DNA of 64,000 nucleotides, taken from contig CAJOJA010000008.1 of NCBI GenBank assembly GCA_905234735.1, forward strand, positions 90,625 through 154,624. Reading direction: 5' to 3'. Position numbers and translations under genes: made by a program. The notes under the pieces were generated by a model, which was given only the letters and a program-made list of their open reading frames with translations, did no database searches and had not been told where the DNA came from. Position 1 is the first letter of the stretch, and each line of letters opens with the position of its first letter. This DNA comes from an uncultured Bacteroidaceae bacterium. GTDB taxonomy: Bacteria; Bacteroidota; Bacteroidia; Bacteroidales; Bacteroidaceae. This document shows positions 48,071 to 59,334 of the stretch, in pieces.

Positions 48071-48102
48071 TTTGGATATACCGCGTTTTTTTCGTAAGTT
48101 TG
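48071..48102 (+). promoter_or_regulatory. Promoter TTTG-N20-TAAGTTTG upstream of the GH20-GH33 gene
   Basis: TTTG 48071-48074; TAAGTTTG 48095-48102. Confidence 0.75.
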
Positions 48103-48123
48103 TAGCCTCAAAAGACTGCAACT

Positions 48124-51100
48124 ATGAAAAAACTTCGATGGTTCCTCTTCTGCCTTATTGTTAATCTGGCCTTGGGCGTGTATGCGCAAGATAGTATGCA
48201 ACCTTCTCAATGGCTCATGCCAAAACCAAAGGCCGTGACTGAAAACAGCTTGACGTTCGCGCTCGGACGTCCCGTAAAACTGACAGATCCTACGTCTTCC
48301 ACACTATTGGCATCACTCTTCACTGTTTCTGATGAAGCTTCAACCACAGTAACTGTAAACATCGTAGATGATGCAACACTGGGGACCTTCAATTACACCT
48401 TGGCCGACTTTCCAAACGAGGGCTACAAACTCAGCGTTACTGCCGATGCCATTAACATCACCGCAGCCTCAAAGACGGGTGTGATACGTGCGGCACAGAC
48501 ACTCAAGCAGTTAGCTGACGCAGCCGGTGGTGCCTACATTCAAGGGCTGAACATCACGGACTATCCAGCCTTCAAACTGCGCGGCTTCATGCATGACGTG
48601 GGCCGTTCGTTCATCAGTTTCGACGAATTGAAGAAGGAAATAGACCTGCTTGCACGATTCAAGGTGAATGTCTTCCACTGGCATTTGACCGATAATCAGG
48701 GCTTCCGCTTCGAGTCAAAGTTTTATCCTCAGCTGAATAACGCTTCCTCGATGACTCGTTTTGCCGGCCTCTACTACACACAGGCACAATGCACAGAGTT
48801 GGAAGCCTATGCAGCAGAGCGCGGCATCATCATCATTCCGGAGATTGACATGCCAGGCCATTCCACAGCCTTCACCAACGCTATGGGCTACAATATGAGC
48901 AGCGAGCAAGGACGTACTGCACTAAAGGCTCTGCTTGGCGAACTGGCTGCAGCCTTCCCTCTGGCACCCTACATCCACATGGGAGCTGACGAGGCTGGCA
49001 CCACAGCCGCCTTTGTCAACGAGATGTCGCAGTACATAAAGGAAACACTCGGTCGCCGCTGCATCGTGTGGAATCCCATCAGCGGAGTCAGCATCAGCAC
49101 ATCTACGTTACCCTATATCGACATGACGGAGATGTGGAGTACGTCGGGAAAGAAGATTAGCGGAGTTCCCAACATCGACTGCCGCTACAACTACGTGAAC
49201 CACTTCGATGTCTTTGCTGACCTTGTAGGCATCTACAAGAGCAATATCTACTATGCTGAGCGTGGAAGCAGCGAGGTCGCAGGAGCCATCACCGCCTTGT
49301 GGAACGACCGCAAGACACCTATCGAAACGGACATCATCACACAGAACAATCTTTACGCTAACGCTTTGGCTACAGCAGAGCGTGGATGGATGGGTGGCGG
49401 TAAACAGTACATAGAGGTGGGCGGAACCACTCTTCCTAACATCGGAAAGGAGTACGACGAGTTTACCGACTGGGAACGACGCTTCCTATATTATAAGGAT
49501 ACGTGGCTCAGCACTGAACCCATCCCATACGTCAAGCAAACTAACGTGCGCTGGCGCATCACAGAGGCATTCCCCAACAATGGCGATGCCACCGCCGTGT
49601 TCCCGCCTGAAACTGCCACGGACGACATTCTGCCAGCCACTTACACCTACAACGGACGGACCTACACTACAGGTATGGCCACAGGAGCTGGCATCTATCT
49701 GCGCCACACTTGGGGTACAACCGTGCGTTCATATTTCAGCAACCCACAACTGAACACCACCGCCTACGCATGGACATACGTCTATTCACCACAGGCTCAG
49801 ACAGCAGGAGCACTCATCGAGTTCCAGAACTATGGACGTTCCGAGAACGACAAAGCCCCCGACGCTGGAAACTGGGACCGCAAGGGTTCGCACATCTGGT
49901 TGAACGGTGAGGAGATTGCGCCACCAACATGGACCAACACGGGAAAGAACATAGGTGCAGAGATTGATTTGCAGAACGAGAACTTCCCTGCCCGCAAACC
50001 GGTGAACGTAAGACTCAAGCAGGGTTGGAACAAGGTCTTCTTGAAACTGCCTTACGTATCGGCAAGCGGGGTGCGACTGAACAAATGGATGTTCACCTTC
50101 GTCTTGACGACGACAGACGGACGTAAGGCTCTCGACGGGCTCGTGTATTCGCCCACGAAGACCATGAACTTCGAGGACGAGGATATTCCTCGCGCACTTT
50201 CGTCTGACCCTCTTCCGGAAGTGGAAGGAAAGATGATCACGATGTCCAAGACTGCCACACCAGACCTGACTACAGGGCAATGGTACGTGATGTATAATCG
50301 TGGCAGCGGTCGCGGCTATCTGTGGGAGAACGCAAGTTCGCATACACTCTTCAATACAGCTACCGCACCTACCAGTTCTGCCACAACCAATGCAAAATAC
50401 CTAGTGCGTCTTGAAGAGTCAACGGACGGCAAGTTCTTTCTGCAAACAGGCTTCGGCAACTACTTTGGCAAGATTCAGCAATCCACCAATGTGCCTGTTA
50501 CCGCAAACCCAACTGAGGCCATTACCGCGGCCAAAATAAACGGTACGGACGGACACTTTTACCTACAGTCTTCTGAAGGGATCATCCTCGATGCCAACGA
50601 CTACAGCCTGGGCGACAGCAAAGCAACCGTTGTAGGATGGGGAAACACCGTTCCGACCTCCACAGGCGGCAATAACGACTGGGCTTTCTATCCCATTGAA
50701 TTATCAGATGCTTCCGACATCAGCTTTACTGCAGATAATGTGACCGTCTGTCAGGGACACCAAACGGCAGGTCAAGGCAACACTATGCAGGCTCTTTTGC
50801 GTGCACAACTGGTGACAGTTACAGCCTGTACTCCCACACGCTTCGACATCACCCTTACTGGAGCAGAACAGATGAGTCGTGTGGCAATATATTCCACAGA
50901 CATTGACCAACTGTACGCTCCCGGAGCCAATCCCATTCTTCTTGGTTCAGCTACGCCCGTTGACAATAAGCTTTCAATTCCTGTCAGCATAAACTCGCTG
51001 GCTGATGGTCAGAAAGTTTATTTCTGGATTACAGCTGACGTGAAGACGGAGGCTGCTGAACTATCGACTATCGATGCAACTCTGAACGCTATCGCATATA

Positions 51101-52929
51101 ATAATGCGCAAGGTGGAAGTACCTGCGACTTGCAGGAGAAAGGAAACCCTACTGGGGTCATGCAAATCTTCAAACGCCAGCGGTTTCTGTGGACGGGCAG
51201 CCTGAGTCAGGAGAAATATTACCGCATACCTACTATTCTCAACACGGCCGACGGGGGCATCGTGGCACTCTGTGACGACCGCTACGACAACACTCAAGAC
51301 TTGGGAAAGGTGGCCAGCGGTGCAGCAGGGAAGCACAAAATCGATGTGGTGGTACGTAAGAGTATGGACGACGGTGCTACGTGGGACAATACGCGGGTCG
51401 TAGCTGCTGGCGACGGCACATCCGCTGCCGCTTGCGGATACGGCGACCCCGCTATTGTTCGCACACTCAGCGGCAAACTCGTATGCCTGATGGCTGCGGG
51501 TAGTTCCAGCTTCCCCAGCGGAATGTTGCATATGGGTTATTCCGAAAGTACAGACAATGGCGCCACCTGGTCCGCTCCGAGAGACATCTACTCCGCCATC
51601 AACAAGAACGGGCTTAGCATCACTTCCGCTTTCACCTCAGCAGGCAAGGGCATTTGTTTCGCGGACGGACGCATCGCCTTTGCCATGAACGGTAAGGTGG
51701 GTGGGGTGTGCAATGAATATATTCTCTACTCCGACGACGAGGGAAAGACCTGGACCATTGCCCCTAATATGGCTTGTGCAAGTGCCGATGAGTCGAAACT
51801 GGAGATTATGAACGACAACAGCCTTATCCTTTCCGTGCGACAGGGAGGCTGGAACTCACAGGCTAACCGCGCCTATAGCCACACCACAGGCGATGCCTCT
51901 GCCGAAGGTATCAACAGTTGGGGCGAAAAGGGCTACTGGACCGATCTCAATGCCAATGGCTGCAATGCCGACATTCTCTATTACAGCCGTGAAACCGAGG
52001 GAGTACGCGATATGATGCTCCACACAGCCATAAAGACCTTTCAGACCTACCGCAAGGACCTGCGTCTATATATGAGTTTCGACCAGGGCCAGACTTGGCA
52101 GGAAGCCTTCCAGTTGCAGCCCGGATATGCCGCCTATAGTTCGATGCAGAAGCTGGCCAACGGTGACTTGGCTATCATTTTCGAGGACGGCAGTCTTGGC
52201 AATCAGGACAAGATGGACTGCTACGCTATGACCTATCTCGTCATCAGCAGGGAGACGCTGGAGGCTCGTGCCGAGGAGGTCCTTCAAACTAAGCAGGAGT
52301 CGGCTAATCTGATAAAGATTGTTTACGAGAACACAAAGGAAACTGATCTGGGTAGCTGGGACGTCAACAACACCAGCGGACGCAACGTATGGACCTCTTC
52401 CACACCAGCCAATCCCATTGCCGGATTTACGCTCAAGAAATCGGCTGGCACCTTCGACCGCTACACGGGTTGGAACGGATTCTATAATCTGGCCTATAAG
52501 GTCGGGGCTGTTAATCGTGATGAGAGACTGACCCTGACGGCCCCCAAAGGCTACCTCATCAAGAACTATTCCTTCAAGGTACAGGAATGGAGCAATGGCG
52601 CAGCTGCCAACGACTTTGTCATTACGGCAAAGGACGGTACAACCATTCAACCTGCGTATCGCGGCGGAGCCGAAGGCTACACACCGTTCGACATCAAGGA
52701 TGTGCAGGCCAAGTCCACCTATTTCACAGTGCGCTCTACGGATGTTTCCAAGTATTTGGCCATCATCAATTTTGTTGTGTTACTCACACCAGAGGACGAA
52801 GTGGGTATTGATGCTCTGATGATATCAACTGTTAGTGAAGATATATATAACCTTGCAGGACAACGCATCAACACCCCCACACGCCCTGGCCTCTACATCA
52901 AGCATGGCCAGAAAATAGTTGTCCGATAG
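48124..52929 (+). CDS. Secreted GH20 hexosaminidase - GH33 exo-sialidase fusion with a putative T9SS-type C-terminal tail
   Basis: 1601 aa; GH20: KLRGFMHDVGRSFISFDELKKEIDLLARFKVNVFHWHLTDNQGFR, EIDMPGHSTAFTNA, HMGADEAG; GH33: YYRIPTIL and Asp-boxes SMDDGATW, STDNGATW, SDDEGKTW, SFDQGQTW; C-term IYNLAGQRINTPTRPGLYIKHGQKIVVR. Confidence 0.92.
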   Translation: MKKLRWFLFCLIVNLALGVYAQDSMQPSQWLMPKPKAVTENSLTFALGRPVKLTDPTSSTLLASLFTVSDEASTTVTVNIVDDATLGTFNYTLADFPNEGYKLSVTADAINITAASKTGVIRAAQTLKQLADAAGGAYIQGLNITDYPAFKLRGFMHDVGRSFISFDELKKEIDLLARFKVNVFHWHLTDNQGFRFESKFYPQLNNASSMTRFAGLYYTQAQCTELEAYAAERGIIIIPEIDMPGHSTAFTNAMGYNMSSEQGRTALKALLGELAAAFPLAPYIHMGADEAGTTAAFVNEMSQYIKETLGRRCIVWNPISGVSISTSTLPYIDMTEMWSTSGKKISGVPNIDCRYNYVNHFDVFADLVGIYKSNIYYAERGSSEVAGAITALWNDRKTPIETDIITQNNLYANALATAERGWMGGGKQYIEVGGTTLPNIGKEYDEFTDWERRFLYYKDTWLSTEPIPYVKQTNVRWRITEAFPNNGDATAVFPPETATDDILPATYTYNGRTYTTGMATGAGIYLRHTWGTTVRSYFSNPQLNTTAYAWTYVYSPQAQTAGALIEFQNYGRSENDKAPDAGNWDRKGSHIWLNGEEIAPPTWTNTGKNIGAEIDLQNENFPARKPVNVRLKQGWNKVFLKLPYVSASGVRLNKWMFTFVLTTTDGRKALDGLVYSPTKTMNFEDEDIPRALSSDPLPEVEGKMITMSKTATPDLTTGQWYVMYNRGSGRGYLWENASSHTLFNTATAPTSSATTNAKYLVRLEESTDGKFFLQTGFGNYFGKIQQSTNVPVTANPTEAITAAKINGTDGHFYLQSSEGIILDANDYSLGDSKATVVGWGNTVPTSTGGNNDWAFYPIELSDASDISFTADNVTVCQGHQTAGQGNTMQALLRAQLVTVTACTPTRFDITLTGAEQMSRVAIYSTDIDQLYAPGANPILLGSATPVDNKLSIPVSINSLADGQKVYFWITADVKTEAAELSTIDATLNAIAYNNAQGGSTCDLQEKGNPTGVMQIFKRQRFLWTGSLSQEKYYRIPTILNTADGGIVALCDDRYDNTQDLGKVASGAAGKHKIDVVVRKSMDDGATWDNTRVVAAGDGTSAAACGYGDPAIVRTLSGKLVCLMAAGSSSFPSGMLHMGYSESTDNGATWSAPRDIYSAINKNGLSITSAFTSAGKGICFADGRIAFAMNGKVGGVCNEYILYSDDEGKTWTIAPNMACASADESKLEIMNDNSLILSVRQGGWNSQANRAYSHTTGDASAEGINSWGEKGYWTDLNANGCNADILYYSRETEGVRDMMLHTAIKTFQTYRKDLRLYMSFDQGQTWQEAFQLQPGYAAYSSMQKLANGDLAIIFEDGSLGNQDKMDCYAMTYLVISRETLEARAEEVLQTKQESANLIKIVYENTKETDLGSWDVNNTSGRNVWTSSTPANPIAGFTLKKSAGTFDRYTGWNGFYNLAYKVGAVNRDERLTLTAPKGYLIKNYSFKVQEWSNGAAANDFVITAKDGTTIQPAYRGGAEGYTPFDIKDVQAKSTYFTVRSTDVSKYLAIINFVVLLTPEDEVGIDALMISTVSEDIYNLAGQRINTPTRPGLYIKHGQKIVVR

Positions 52930-53067
52930 ATGAATGCACAGCATCCCACTTATAAAGCTATAGGACAGCCCTGTCCATGGCTCGACGAATAGATAATAGA
53001 TTGTAATTAATCTCACAAATAATCATAAAAAATTCTCCGTATCGCAAGTGATATGGATGATTTTTTG

Positions 53068-53075
53068 TATATTTG
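53068..53075 (+). promoter_or_regulatory. -7 element TATATTTG upstream of the SGNH gene
   Basis: TAnnTTTG match; no clear -33. Confidence 0.45.
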
Positions 53076-53102
53076 CAGCAGGTATTATAAAATTATATAG
53101 CT

Positions 53103-56102
53103 ATGAAACGAATCCTAACCACACTTATACTGCTCATTGTATGTATAAGTTTTTCATGGGCCGACGGACCTTTCCGCACAGCACGTTATGACGGTTTTAA
53201 AGTGTTGTCTCCCAAAGCAGGCAGTATCCTAATGATCGGTAACAGCATTACCGATATGCATATCTGGCAGGAAGTGTTCCGTGACGCCGATGGCAACTAT
53301 CTTCCCATCTGCAATCGTGGTAATTCCGGTTCGTATTCTACTGAACAGAGCGAGAACATCGAGAGCTACATCGCCAATGGGCCGTCGAAGGTCTTTCTCA
53401 TGATTGGCACAAACGACATTGCCACCAGCGGTGGTCTGAACTTCACTCCGGAGCAGGTTCTCAGCTATGTCAAGAGCATGGTGAAACGCATTCACAGACG
53501 TTCGCCAAGCACCCACATCTACCTGTACCCGATTCTGAATAACAACACCAGCAATCGTATCAGGGCAACATGGTTGCACTACAATGAGATACTCAAGGAT
53601 TATATTGAGAGCTCGAATGACGCCCTCCTCACTTTCGTAGATATCTACGATGCGCTGCAGAATCTGGCCAACGGCGGTGCATGGAGCAACGACAACCTAC
53701 ATCCCAATGCCGCAGCCTATAAGATATGGTGTCATGCGATTCTGCCATATCTGGGTGAGAACGTCACCAGCGTGTATGACAATGTCAGTGGCGACCTCGC
53801 AAGCGTTCAGCGCCAGGATGGCTTGAGTAGTATGCACGGCGGTCGTGCCACGATGTTTTCGGTCATGCCTATCAGCAACAATGACATCATGATATTCGGC
53901 GACAGCGAAATCAAGACTGCTGAATGGTGGGAACTGCTTGGTAGCCCCAACGTCAAGAACCGCGGCACAGGCTGGAATAACAGCGGAGACATTGCCACTA
54001 CCAGCAAGGAGGTTGACGCCACATGGGCTGTGACTGGTGCTGATAAGTCTGGTTGCCCGAAAGCCATCTTTCTCTACACTGGGACAAGCGATGTTACAGG
54101 CTCTACCGATATGGCAACTGTTCAGTCGAACTACACTGCGCTCATTAACAAACTGAAGACGAAAGCCCCGACAGCAAAAATTTATGTGATGGCCATCCAT
54201 CCACGATACAACAATGCCTCGCTTAATACAGGGCGTATCAAGACCTTCAACAGTTGGCTGCAGAATACACTTGCTGCTGGCAACGCAAATGTCCAGTTCG
54301 TTGATACATACACCCCGTTGCTCAGTGGCAACAATGCGGATGCCGCTTACGTCAACAGCAACCAATATCTCCTTGGAAGGGGATGCGTAGTGTTTGCAAA
54401 TGCTATGGCTGCAGCATACAATGCTGATTTTGACACTGACCAGATGGTTCCTGTATCGGTGGAGACAGGCAACACCAACTATGCCATGAGCACACGTCGC
54501 AATACCATCGGAACAGCCATTACGGATGGGCGCGACGTTGTGGCAGGAACAAAAGTCGGCGACTACACCGAAGCCGGTGTCAGCGCTTTCAAGACTGCCG
54601 AGGATGCTGCATTCAATGTGCTGGCGCAGCAGACCATCACCGATGCCGAGGTTACAAATGTCGTCAATGCGTTGCGGGCCGGTCTCGAGGTGATTGCTCC
54701 TACGAGCGAAAACACGACAGGCAAGTACTTTCGCCTCTACACGCCCAACCGCGGTTCCCGCTATCTGACGAATAACGGAAGCGGCACGACCATGTTGGGA
54801 TTGCCATTGGGCATATTCGACAATCAGGTCTGGCAAATGGAGGGACGTAGCGACGGTTCCTTTGACATCAAGAGCGCTTACGACGGCTCTTATATGGCAA
54901 TGACCTCGCCCATTTCCACGACACAAGCAAAACCAGCAAACGGCTGGTCATTTGTGGAGAGCGATACCCCCGGCATGTTTATCATTACAAGCGGTACCAA
55001 CCAACTCAATCAACAGAACAACAGCCCTTACAGCATCCTGAACTGGGGCGGTGGAAGCAATACAAGTGATGACGGCTGTAAATACAAGATTGTCGAGGTG
55101 GAGGCATCCGACTTCGAGCACCTGCATATTCAGGACGGCAAATACTATACCATTGCAGGCTTTGTCATCAACTACAGCAAGCAGACCACCCACTATGTAC
55201 TGTACAACGGCACAAGCCGCTTCATGAGCACAACGGCACCCTCCAGCAAGGAGGGCCTTTGGAAAGCCGTCAAGGTGGATGGGGGCTGGAAGTTCCAGTC
55301 GGCCAAAGATATCAGTCAGTACCTGACATACGACGGCACGGACAATACGGGTGCAGTATATACCATAGAGGCAGGAGTTGCCACTGGTTGCGTTTCCATG
55401 AGAATCAATGGCGTATGGTCTGCATCTTCAGAGACGGGTGACATGGGCGGGGCTTACAAGTCTTCAAGCCAAGCCGTTCAGAATTCTTATTCCTGGTCAA
55501 CCGATTGGATCATCACAGAGACAGAGATAGAGATAGATCCAGAGCCAGAGACCGACTATGTAAAAGATGGCCAATTATATACTATCGCGGGGTATGTTGC
55601 CCGTAATGGCGGTACGACCAATTACGTTTACTACGACGGCACGACCCGTTCCATGAGCACAACCGTACCAACTGACAGCAAAGGTGTCTGGAAAGCCGTA
55701 AAGGTGAATAACGGATGGAAGTTTGAAAGCGTTAAGGCAGAAGGCAAATACCTTACCTACGAGGGTGTGGATGCTACGGGTGCTGTCTATAGCATCGAGC
55801 CTGGTGTTGCCGAAGGTTGTCTGTCCATGAGAATCAATGGTGTATGGTCTGCATCTTCTGAAAATGGTGATATGGGCGGTATATACAAGGCATCAAACAA
55901 CAGCGTTCAGTCTCCCCTCTACAACTGGTCAACCGACTGGAAAATCACGGAGTACGATGATTCTCCAGCAACAGGGGTAACCCATATCTCAGAAGCGGAA
56001 GCCAATGTACAGCCTACCTATCATCTAAATGGTATACGTGTCAACAAAATCGAGAAGGGGGACATATACATCCAAGGTGGTCGTAAGATTGTAACAAAAT
56101 AA
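53103..56102 (+). CDS. Secreted dual SGNH/GDSL hydrolase with tandem C-terminal modules (candidate carbohydrate/sialate esterase)
   Basis: 999 aa; module 1 ILMIGNSITD, CNRGNSG, MIGTNDIA, DNLHPNAAAY; module 2 IMIFGDSEI, NRGTG, YTGTSDV; two ~135 aa C-terminal repeats; C-term TYHLNGIRVNKIEKGDIYIQGGRKIVTK. Confidence 0.85.
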   Translation: MKRILTTLILLIVCISFSWADGPFRTARYDGFKVLSPKAGSILMIGNSITDMHIWQEVFRDADGNYLPICNRGNSGSYSTEQSENIESYIANGPSKVFLMIGTNDIATSGGLNFTPEQVLSYVKSMVKRIHRRSPSTHIYLYPILNNNTSNRIRATWLHYNEILKDYIESSNDALLTFVDIYDALQNLANGGAWSNDNLHPNAAAYKIWCHAILPYLGENVTSVYDNVSGDLASVQRQDGLSSMHGGRATMFSVMPISNNDIMIFGDSEIKTAEWWELLGSPNVKNRGTGWNNSGDIATTSKEVDATWAVTGADKSGCPKAIFLYTGTSDVTGSTDMATVQSNYTALINKLKTKAPTAKIYVMAIHPRYNNASLNTGRIKTFNSWLQNTLAAGNANVQFVDTYTPLLSGNNADAAYVNSNQYLLGRGCVVFANAMAAAYNADFDTDQMVPVSVETGNTNYAMSTRRNTIGTAITDGRDVVAGTKVGDYTEAGVSAFKTAEDAAFNVLAQQTITDAEVTNVVNALRAGLEVIAPTSENTTGKYFRLYTPNRGSRYLTNNGSGTTMLGLPLGIFDNQVWQMEGRSDGSFDIKSAYDGSYMAMTSPISTTQAKPANGWSFVESDTPGMFIITSGTNQLNQQNNSPYSILNWGGGSNTSDDGCKYKIVEVEASDFEHLHIQDGKYYTIAGFVINYSKQTTHYVLYNGTSRFMSTTAPSSKEGLWKAVKVDGGWKFQSAKDISQYLTYDGTDNTGAVYTIEAGVATGCVSMRINGVWSASSETGDMGGAYKSSSQAVQNSYSWSTDWIITETEIEIDPEPETDYVKDGQLYTIAGYVARNGGTTNYVYYDGTTRSMSTTVPTDSKGVWKAVKVNNGWKFESVKAEGKYLTYEGVDATGAVYSIEPGVAEGCLSMRINGVWSASSENGDMGGIYKASNNSVQSPLYNWSTDWKITEYDDSPATGVTHISEAEANVQPTYHLNGIRVNKIEKGDIYIQGGRKIVTK
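55119..55958 (+). repeat. Tandem intragenic duplication encoding two ~135-aa modules
   Basis: KYYTIAGFV...SRFMSTTAPSSKEGLWKAVKVDGGWKFQSAKDISQYLTYDGTDNTGAVYTIEAGVATGCVSMRINGVWSASSETGDMGGAYK vs LYTIAGYV...TRSMSTTVPTDSKGVWKAVKVNNGWKFESVKAEGKYLTYEGVDATGAVYSIEPGVAEGCLSMRINGVWSASSENGDMGGIYK. Confidence 0.95.
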
Positions 56103-56202: not shown

Positions 56203-57258
56203 ATGAAAAAGATAATTACATGCGTTCTGGCTATGTTGGGACTGACGACAGCCTGTGGCCATCAGAACTATAACGACGCTGATGTTCAAGGGTTTGCTGA
56301 ACTGATTGCTGGTCCTGATGTCATTCTGTTAGATGTCCGTACCGCCGAGGAATTTGCAGAAGGACATATAGAAGGGGCTGTTCATATCAATCAGGCTCTG
56401 AGTGATTTCATTGAACAAGTTAAGGCGAAATTACCCACAGACAAGACTATTGCCGTCTATTGTCGCAGCGGCAAGCGCTCCGCAAGTGCAGCCGGACGAT
56501 TAGTCACTGCAGGCTACAAGTGCGTGAATCTCAAAGGTGGAATCATGGCTTGGAAGGAGGCAGGCTTACCCGTCACCACCGACACCTATGAGGTCGATGT
56601 ATTCAAGACCAAGGGCGGAAATACGGTGAAGTTTCACGCATTGGTTCATGCCACCATACGCATCGAATACAACAGTCTTGAAATCATGATTGACCCCGTG
56701 GCAAAGTTGGGTAACAAGATAATAGACTATGCTTCGATGCCAAAAGCCGACTATATCTTTGTAACACACGAGCATTTTGACCATTTTGACAAAGAGGCTA
56801 TCCAACAGCTCACAGATGACAAGACACAGCTCATCACAAACAAGCGGTGTGCAGAAATACTGGACTTTGGACAGGTCATGAACAATGGCGATAAGATGAC
56901 CATAGCAGAGGATATCACCATTGAAGCAGTTCCGGCTTACAACAACACAGAAGGACATACACAGTTCCATCCCAAAGGACGTGACAACGGCTTCATCCTC
57001 ACCCTCGACGGCCTCCGCATATATATCGCCGGAGATACTGAGGACATCCCTGAAATGGCAGATATCAAAGACATTGACATCGCATTCATGCCCTGTAATC
57101 AGCCATACACGATGACACCCACCCAACTCGTCAAGGCTGCGAAGACCGTCAAGCCCAAAGTGCTCTTCCCATATCACTATGGCCAAACAGATATCAGTTC
57201 CATTCCTTTTGAACTCAAAGAGAGTGGCATTGACGTGAGAATCAGACATTACGAATAA
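56203..57258 (+). CDS. Lipoprotein with rhodanese domain fused to an MBL-fold (UlaG-like) hydrolase
   Basis: Lipobox LGLTTAC; rhodanese LLDVRTAEEFAEGHIEGAVHI, VYCRSGKRSASAAG; MBL VTHEHFDHFD, IAGDTEDI, FPYHYGQTD. Confidence 0.88.
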   Translation: MKKIITCVLAMLGLTTACGHQNYNDADVQGFAELIAGPDVILLDVRTAEEFAEGHIEGAVHINQALSDFIEQVKAKLPTDKTIAVYCRSGKRSASAAGRLVTAGYKCVNLKGGIMAWKEAGLPVTTDTYEVDVFKTKGGNTVKFHALVHATIRIEYNSLEIMIDPVAKLGNKIIDYASMPKADYIFVTHEHFDHFDKEAIQQLTDDKTQLITNKRCAEILDFGQVMNNGDKMTIAEDITIEAVPAYNNTEGHTQFHPKGRDNGFILTLDGLRIYIAGDTEDIPEMADIKDIDIAFMPCNQPYTMTPTQLVKAAKTVKPKVLFPYHYGQTDISSIPFELKESGIDVRIRHYE

Positions 57259-57844: not shown

Positions 57845-58219
57845 ATGGGTATGAATGTCGAGCAAGTACGAGAATACACACTGTCGCTCTATGGTGTAAC
57901 AGAAGACCAGGCATTCGGGGAGGATATACTTAACTTCCGATTGGAAGGTAAAATCTTCGTTTGTCTATGGCTTGGCGGTGGCAAATATGATATGCAGGAC
58001 GGTGTTTCACGAATCGCACTGAAACTGTCACCAGACAGGAATATAGAACTTCGTGAACAATATTCAGCTGTAACACCAGCCTATCATTGGAACAAGACGC
58101 ATTGGAGCGACGTGTATTACGAGCAGATGGAAGACTCGTTAGTCAAGGAGTGGATTAAAGAATCCTATACACTCATTGCATCAAAACTACCGAAGGCTGT
58201 CAGGCAAAAGTATTTATAA
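57845..58219 (+). CDS. MmcQ/YjbR family protein
   Basis: 124 aa; YGVTEDQAFGEDILNFRLEGKIFVCLWL, ALKLSPDRNIELREQY, HWNKTHWSDVYYEQ. Confidence 0.85.
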   Translation: MGMNVEQVREYTLSLYGVTEDQAFGEDILNFRLEGKIFVCLWLGGGKYDMQDGVSRIALKLSPDRNIELREQYSAVTPAYHWNKTHWSDVYYEQMEDSLVKEWIKESYTLIASKLPKAVRQKYL

Positions 58220-58236
58220 TGATAAATAAATTGAAC

Positions 58237-59334
58237 ATGAAACAGATTTCATTATTTTTAGCAGCATTGATGATGTTTGGCCTCAGTGCAAGTTCGCAGA
58301 AACAAGAGAAGAAAACCTTGGTAACCTATTTCTCGGCAACGGGAACGACCAAGGCTGCAGCCAAACAGCTGAAAACAGTAGTTGGAGCCGACCTGTATGA
58401 GATTAAGCCAGCTAAACCCTATACGGATGCTGACCTCGACTGGCGGAACAAACAGAGCCGTTCATCATTGGAGATGAAAGATAAGTCTTCACGCCCAACC
58501 ATTGCCGGTAAGCTAAAGAACATGAAAGACTATGATGTGGTATATGTCGGATTCCCCATTTGGTGGAACACCTGTCCTACCATCATCAACACATTCATGG
58601 AGTCGTATGACTTCAAAGGGAAAACGGTTATTCCCTTTGCCACCAGTGGTAGTAGCAGTATCAAGCAGTCTTGTGAAGACCTGAAAAAGACATACCCACA
58701 GGTTAATTGGAAGGAAGGCAAACTGCTGAATAGAGTGAGTAAAAAGGAACTGGAAACATGGATAAAAAGTGTAAACACTATGAGTACGATTTATGATTAC
58801 ACAGCCCTTTCTAACAAGGGTGAGGAAGTGAACTTCTCTGACTACAGAGGGAAAGTACTTCTAATTGTCAACACAGCATCAAAGTGTGGTTTCACTCCAC
58901 AGTACGACGGATTGGAAGCGCTCTATCAGAAGTACAAGGACCAGGGACTTGTCATCATTGGCTTTCCCTGCGACCAGTTCGGTCATCAGGAACCCGGCAC
59001 AAATGAGGAGATAGAGGAGTTCTGTCGTCTGAACCACGGCGTCACATTCCCATTGATGTCAAAGATTGAGGTCAATGGAAAGAATGCGCACCCCATCTAC
59101 AGATGGCTGGAGAGTCAGGCAGGTTTTGCCGGATTTACTCCCGAGCATCCCCTTTCCAAGTTGCTTGATGAAATGCTATCAAAGGCTGATTCTGCATACG
59201 CTTCGAATCCCGACATCAAATGGAACTTCACGAAATTCCTCATCAACCGTAAGGGTGAGGTCGTCGGCCGCTTCGAACCCACAGCTGAGCCAACAGCGTT
59301 GGAAAAGCCGATTGAGGAGCAGTTATTGCCATGA
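58237..59334 (+). CDS. Exported flavodoxin-glutathione peroxidase fusion
   Basis: Signal peptide MKQISLFLAALMMFGLSASSQ; flavodoxin LVTYFSATGTTKAAAKQL, VGFPIWWNTCP; GPx VNTASKCGFTPQYDGLEALYQKYKDQGLVIIGFPCDQFGHQEPGTNEEI, WNFTKFLINRKGEVVGRF. Confidence 0.9.
   Translation: MKQISLFLAALMMFGLSASSQKQEKKTLVTYFSATGTTKAAAKQLKTVVGADLYEIKPAKPYTDADLDWRNKQSRSSLEMKDKSSRPTIAGKLKNMKDYDVVYVGFPIWWNTCPTIINTFMESYDFKGKTVIPFATSGSSSIKQSCEDLKKTYPQVNWKEGKLLNRVSKKELETWIKSVNTMSTIYDYTALSNKGEEVNFSDYRGKVLLIVNTASKCGFTPQYDGLEALYQKYKDQGLVIIGFPCDQFGHQEPGTNEEIEEFCRLNHGVTFPLMSKIEVNGKNAHPIYRWLESQAGFAGFTPEHPLSKLLDEMLSKADSAYASNPDIKWNFTKFLINRKGEVVGRFEPTAEPTALEKPIEEQLLP

Follow-up and report, generated by a model that had tools for sequence, protein, structure and literature searches.

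The locus studied here lies in a 64,000-nucleotide stretch of DNA from an uncultured Bacteroidaceae bacterium, which was analysed as a whole and is referred to below as the window. Two adjacent genes on its forward strand, named P1 and P2, raise the question whether a protein with two glycosidase domains and a neighbouring esterase act together on host sialoglycans, and whether both halves of the esterase contribute to catalysis.

The two genes and their domains

Both open reading frames recognised in a previous sequence-only reading of this DNA were confirmed. Their features and those of the flanking DNA are listed below by window coordinates and strand.

48095..48106, +, promoter-like TAnnTTTG motif preceding P1
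48124..52929, +, P1, GH20-GH33 fusion of 1601 aa with a signal-like N-terminus
48214..48564, +, P1 GH20b N-terminal domain, residues 31-147 (Pfam PF02838)
48571..49563, +, P1 GH20 catalytic domain, residues 150-480 (Pfam PF00728, PDB alignment)
49564..50193, +, P1 domain after GH20, residues 481-690
50194..50718, +, P1 accessory module, residues 691-865, weakly beta-trefoil-like by model
50719..51153, +, P1 sialidase N-terminal beta domain (BNR_assoc_N-like), residues 866-1010
51154..52278, +, P1 GH33 sialidase propeller, residues 1011-1385
52279..52803, +, P1 C-terminal accessory module without known family, residues 1386-1560
52804..52926, +, P1 C-terminal tail IYNLAGQRI..GLYIKHGQKIVVR, possible sorting tail
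53036..53057, +, hairpin followed by T run, terminator-like, in the P1-P2 intergenic region
53068..53079, +, promoter-like TAnnTTTG motif preceding P2
53103..56102, +, P2, tandem SGNH protein of 999 aa
53235..53726, +, P2 SGNH1, residues 45-208, esterase site intact
53808..54437, +, P2 SGNH2, residues 236-445, predicted pseudo-esterase
54702..55142, +, P2 lectin-like module, residues 534-680, weak RicinB match
55155..55982, +, P2 accessory module in two tandem copies, residues 685-960
55995..56099, +, P2 C-terminal tail, resembling that of P1

The presence of a GH20 domain and of a GH33 sialidase with four Asp-boxes in the single ORF of P1 was borne out by Pfam searches and alignments. Pfam located GH20b at residues 31-147 and GH20 from residue 150 to beyond residue 255 (E 8.6e-42; 144 bits for PF00728 against a cut-off of 22.3), the end of the catalytic domain at residue 480 being set by family comparison, and the BNR_2 sialidase at residues 1071-1351 (PF13088, E 1.5e-22; 80.7 bits against a cut-off of 31.4). 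The Asp-boxes start at residues 1080, 1142, 1203 and 1318. The catalytic residues were read from alignments to GH20 and GH33 enzymes of solved structure and to about 170 domains of relatives. The GH20 Asp-Glu pair (D289-E290) is present, as are the pocket residues R161, W316, W338, Y355 and W393, which are conserved among relatives. Similarly, the GH33 domain contains the arginine triad (R1034, R1239 and R1310/R1314), the Asp acid/base D1052 and the Tyr/Glu nucleophile pair (Y1338 and E1223). None of the residues expected in either domain is missing, and to judge from the alignments both look catalytically competent. A second GH33 fusion of the same genome (contig C20, L063 7405-12348) has QHANFKLY in place of the third-arginine motif YRKDLRLY of P1, and this type of change in the arginine triad is common to a whole GH33 subfamily of the relatives.

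PDB profile searches gave no firm family identity for the accessory modules of P1 and P2. The domain at residues 481-690 of P1 also follows the same type of GH20 in single-domain GH20 proteins of Porphyromonas and Odoribacter, whereas the module at residues 691-865, for which Foldseek gave weak beta-trefoil matches, precedes many GH33 domains in the genus of P1. In P2, the two copies at residues 685-960 are identical at 79 of 124 aligned positions, and the lectin-like module recurs in relatives, where it lies between the GH20 and GH33 domains.

The C-terminal tails of the two proteins are indeed similar, as the earlier reading had noticed, both being of the type IYNLAGQRxxxPxxxGxYIxxGxKxVV, and the P1-type tail is common to most homologues. 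Neither tail matched the T9SS C-terminal domain TIGR04183 in NCBIfam searches up to E 10. The type IX secretion gene for SprA is present on the minus strand at the start of the window (positions 1-2262; genome C8:88417-92886), and P1 and P2 are both probably secreted. As a terminator-like hairpin and TAnnTTTG sites, all of them consensus matches only, occur at the locus, P1 and P2 may be transcribed separately, and the proposal of a two-gene operon is weakened by the hairpin and the promoter-like site that lie between the genes. Further downstream, the window encodes a fusion of rhodanese and metallo-beta-lactamase-like domains (56203-57258) and a protein that joins a flavodoxin to a glutathione peroxidase-like domain (58219-59334).

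The tandem SGNH domains of P2

Pfam Lipase_GDSL_2 matches P2 in two stretches (E 1.8e-27). In SGNH1 the blocks are complete (GNS, NRG, GTND and NDNLH), with Ser48, Gly73, Asn104, Asp197 and His200 as the catalytic residues of blocks I, II, III and V, and this domain is intact in every tandem-bearing relative compared. The corresponding blocks of SGNH2 are GDSE, NRGTGW, GTSD and NSNQY. Ser268 and Gly288 are retained, but GTSD replaces GxND in block III (Ser329 for Asn) and NSNQY replaces NDxLH in block V (Ser419 and Tyr422 for Asp and His). P2 had been described as a dual-SGNH esterase, which is correct for the two folds, whereas only one of the sites is complete. Among 19 SGNH2 copies, one of which (L069) is a frame-broken fragment, the full Ser/Asn/Asp/His set is found in none and the serine in three. 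Most of these 19 proteins share SGNH2 motifs of their own, GDExVK, NRGTGW and TGTxD. In a tree of 40 domains, all SGNH1 domains form one clade and all SGNH2 domains another (support 100/96 and 100/99), and the order of the proteins is similar within the two clades. Separate clades with a similar inner order are best explained, at the level of sequence, by a single ancient tandem event, after which the second half lost catalysis.

The AlphaFold model of the tandem, built from a shallow alignment of five sequences, reached a pLDDT of 75.9 and a pTM of 0.80, the latter fitting a fixed arrangement of SGNH1 and SGNH2. Its least confident part, with pLDDT below 50, is the block-V region at residues 390-407. 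In a Foldseek search with this model, the sialate 9-O-acetylesterase PvSAE occupied ranks 1-4 and 6-10, with 7pzh/7pzg as the top matches (TM by target 0.83). By sequence, SGNH2 also had PvSAE as its best match, whereas that of SGNH1 was 2hsj, and SGNH1 weakly matched acetylxylan esterases as well.

SGNH2 would be a catalytically dead domain retained for a non-catalytic role. The homodimer is not a strictly defining property of sialate 9-O-acetylesterases, E. coli NanS being a monomer. In the PvSAE homodimer, the N-terminal helix of one protomer contacts the catalytic omega-loop of the other (PMC9063846). According to the model, SGNH2 may be a covalently tethered stand-in for the second protomer of such a dimer; it may also be a sialoglycan-binding module. 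A literature search that took in few subscription papers returned no sialate esterase reported to contain a conserved SGNH pseudo-domain.

Fusions in relatives, conservation of the pair and the host genome

SGNH hydrolases act on a wide range of ester substrates. The link between the P2 esterase and sialic acid comes from its structural match to PvSAE and from the relatives, in which ten proteins (L079-L086, L088, L097) join the SGNH tandem to GH33 and three (L087, L152, L157) join it to GH20; two further SGNH-tandem proteins contain weak sialidase-like repeats. In Odoribacter sp. Z80 (L161), a GH33, a GH20 and a single intact SGNH are encoded by neighbouring genes. The three predicted activities are therefore found in all pairwise fusions, including the GH20-GH33 fusion represented by P1. 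Together, the fusions, the fold match and the Odoribacter triad support the previously suggested sialate O-acetylesterase role of P2, with O-acetylated sialate as its probable substrate. On this basis we tentatively propose, as an idea whose chances we put slightly below even, that an ancient Bacteroidales sialate-O-acetylesterase tandem, its dead SGNH2 serving as built-in dimer partner or sialoglycan binder, was shuffled among sialidases and hexosaminidases and gave rise to all three pairwise fusions. In the literature searched, with subscription papers mostly outside the search, no published GH20-GH33 fusion was found.

Proteins built like P1 are common within the genus. Including P1, 26 distinct GH20-GH33 fused ORFs were counted (36 were listed, ten being the same contig twice), and the number of accessory modules between both domains varies. 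The pair itself, however, is not a conserved module: none of the 25 other loci, several of which have flanks shorter than 1.2 kb downstream, has an SGNH tandem near the GH20-GH33 gene, and the flanks differ. In the stretches compared, two relatives keep the upstream gene block with P1 and P2 absent behind it, and the orthologues that the downstream rhodanese-lactamase gene has elsewhere are not preceded by P2. The differing flanks and the absent neighbours indicate that the location of the P1-P2 pair is specific to this species. Only two of the genomes examined (G000 and G029) contain an SGNH tandem as well as a full GH20-GH33 protein. The close P2 orthologue of G029 (L069, contig C2; 82-92% identical) is split into three frames.

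The relatives are mostly ruminant-stomach MAGs. Their labels are Bacteroidaceae or Prevotellaceae and, in one case, UBA4372. The assignment to Prevotella was thus not upheld; the genus is likely UBA4372, and the relatives point to a ruminant host. Within 5 kb on contig C4 of the same genome (L193 6635-11391) lie genes for an N-acylglucosamine 2-epimerase (AGE) that scores above its NCBIfam cut-off, for a protein joining a NanM-type mutarotase to a sodium symporter, and for a NanA-like lyase that scores below the curated NanA cut-off. These genes likely form a sialate utilisation cluster, so that the cell can plausibly use the sialic acid released. The genome also has ten SusD matches, none of them on the contig of the P1-P2 pair, and two M60 peptidases. 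With these uptake and catabolic genes on C4 and SusD elsewhere, the earlier view of the pair as a standalone or public-goods module is not supported. Twenty dockerin-like matches were detected in the genome (contigs C1-C33), and no cohesin scaffold for them was detected on the same contigs. In a relative, one protein (L065 7767-14693) unites M60 peptidase, GH33 and dockerin domains.

Predicted substrate and comparison with known enzymes

We consider it probable that P1 is a secreted exo-glycosidase with GH33 and GH20 activities and P2 a secreted sialate O-acetylesterase with a dead SGNH2, that the pair targets O-acetylated salivary mucin, and that the released sialate is used by the same cell. 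SGNH1 of P2 would remove the 9-O-acetyl group from sialic acid, which otherwise blocks GH33; the GH33 of P1 would then cleave the alpha-linked sialic acid and its GH20 would release a beta-linked GlcNAc or GalNAc, both domains acting on one and the same mucin glycan of the host. On sialyl-core-3-type chains, the predicted activities of the two proteins together would expose the core GalNAc, and the sialic acid released would be imported. Sialic acid and HexNAc had been taken for successive sugars of host glycans. This is true of particular glycans, among them sialyl core 3, in which GlcNAc and Neu5Ac are both attached to GalNAc, but not of sialyl-LacNAc, in which galactose sits between sialic acid and GlcNAc. 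The sialic acid of bovine submaxillary mucin is highly O-acetylated and blocks sialidases, a block that EstA relieves (PMC5512079). The O-glycans of this mucin are low in galactose and probably based for the most part on cores 3 and 4 (PMC11027200), and sialyl chains of core 3 or 5, isomers that were not told apart, are largely mono-acetylated (PMC10600165). Ruminant saliva would therefore be a fitting source of substrate, and O-acetylated sialyl-core-3-type salivary mucin glycans are our best guess.

The non-conserved order of P1 and P2, together with the hairpin and the separate promoter-like sites, might suggest that the two genes are unrelated and adjacent by accident, P2 deacetylating another ester such as an acetylated plant polysaccharide. 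Ruminant feed is rich in acetylated xylan, and the weak sequence match of SGNH1 to acetylxylan esterases would agree with such a role. We nevertheless hold this to be improbable, since 13 relatives carry the SGNH tandem in one protein with GH33 or GH20, the solved structure most similar to it is that of a sialate 9-O-acetylesterase, and the GH33/GH20/SGNH gene triad is present in Odoribacter. Even less probable is that SGNH2 is an esterase with a rewired site, using for example the conserved acid of GDE, and with a substrate of its own. Its specific motifs are conserved and thus apparently under selection, but the rarity of the nucleophile serine, the absence of a full set from all copies and the low confidence of the modelled block-V region argue against it.

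A further alternative concerns the specificity of P1, which might be directed at the branched Sda/GM2-type terminus GalNAc-beta1-4(Neu5Ac-alpha2-3)Gal rather than at core-3 salivary mucin, the sialidase acting first and GH20 then taking the GalNAc. GH20 enzymes are able to cleave beta-GalNAc, both sugars are here likewise carried by one acceptor, the Gal, and the Bifidobacterium bifidum enzyme SiaBb3, which combines GH33 with a beta-GalNAcase, does exactly this on its Sda/GM2 target (PMC12856340). However, the HexNAcase of P1 is a GH20 and not a GH123, and the P1 sequence favours neither GalNAc nor GlcNAc, nor does it assign the linkage preferences of GH20 and GH33. We regard this specificity as unlikely, although less so than the accidental neighbourhood of the genes, and retain O-acetylated core-3-type mucin as the preferred substrate.

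The occurrence of multi-catalytic CAZymes outside PULs has a parallel in another rumen Bacteroidota, 'Ca. Paraporphyromonas polyenzymogenes' (PMC5831590), whose enzymes are plant cellulases with recognised T9SS tails, whereas P1 and P2 are predicted mucin enzymes in which such tails were not detected. In Odoribacter sp. Z80, neighbouring genes would provide the same three activities, but as three separate proteins. The uncultured ruminant-gut genus would be equipped to strip O-acetylated sialoglycans, probably of host mucin, and P1 and P2 could serve as tools for O-acetylated mucin analysis.

Among known enzymes, SiaBb3, SiaBb1 and PvSAE come closest. Like P2, PvSAE of Phocaeicola vulgatus and Bacteroides EstA (7PZG, 6NJC; PMC9063846, PMC5512079) have the SGNH fold, and SGNH1 shares with them the GNS nucleophile motif, the Ser-His-Asp triad and the Gly/Asn oxyanion hole. 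PvSAE, however, is a single-domain homodimer, whereas the two SGNH domains of P2, the second of them degenerate, are covalently joined and accompanied by lectin-like modules. The conserved dead SGNH2 poses a defined pseudoenzyme question, that of glycan binding versus completion of the neighbour's active site. SiaBb1 of B. bifidum (PMC10017367) is a fusion of an O-acetylesterase with GH33, as in the relatives of P2, but in P2 the esterase forms a protein of its own, in which one of the two tandem SGNH halves is dead. SiaBb3 (PMC12856340) resembles P1 in joining GH33 and an exo-beta-HexNAcase in one polypeptide for one host glycan; it differs in having GH123 instead of GH20, in its accessory modules and in belonging to Bifidobacterium and not Bacteroidales, and the substrate of P1 is a predicted one. 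The strategy of P1 and P2 would represent a convergent version of the B. bifidum fusions.
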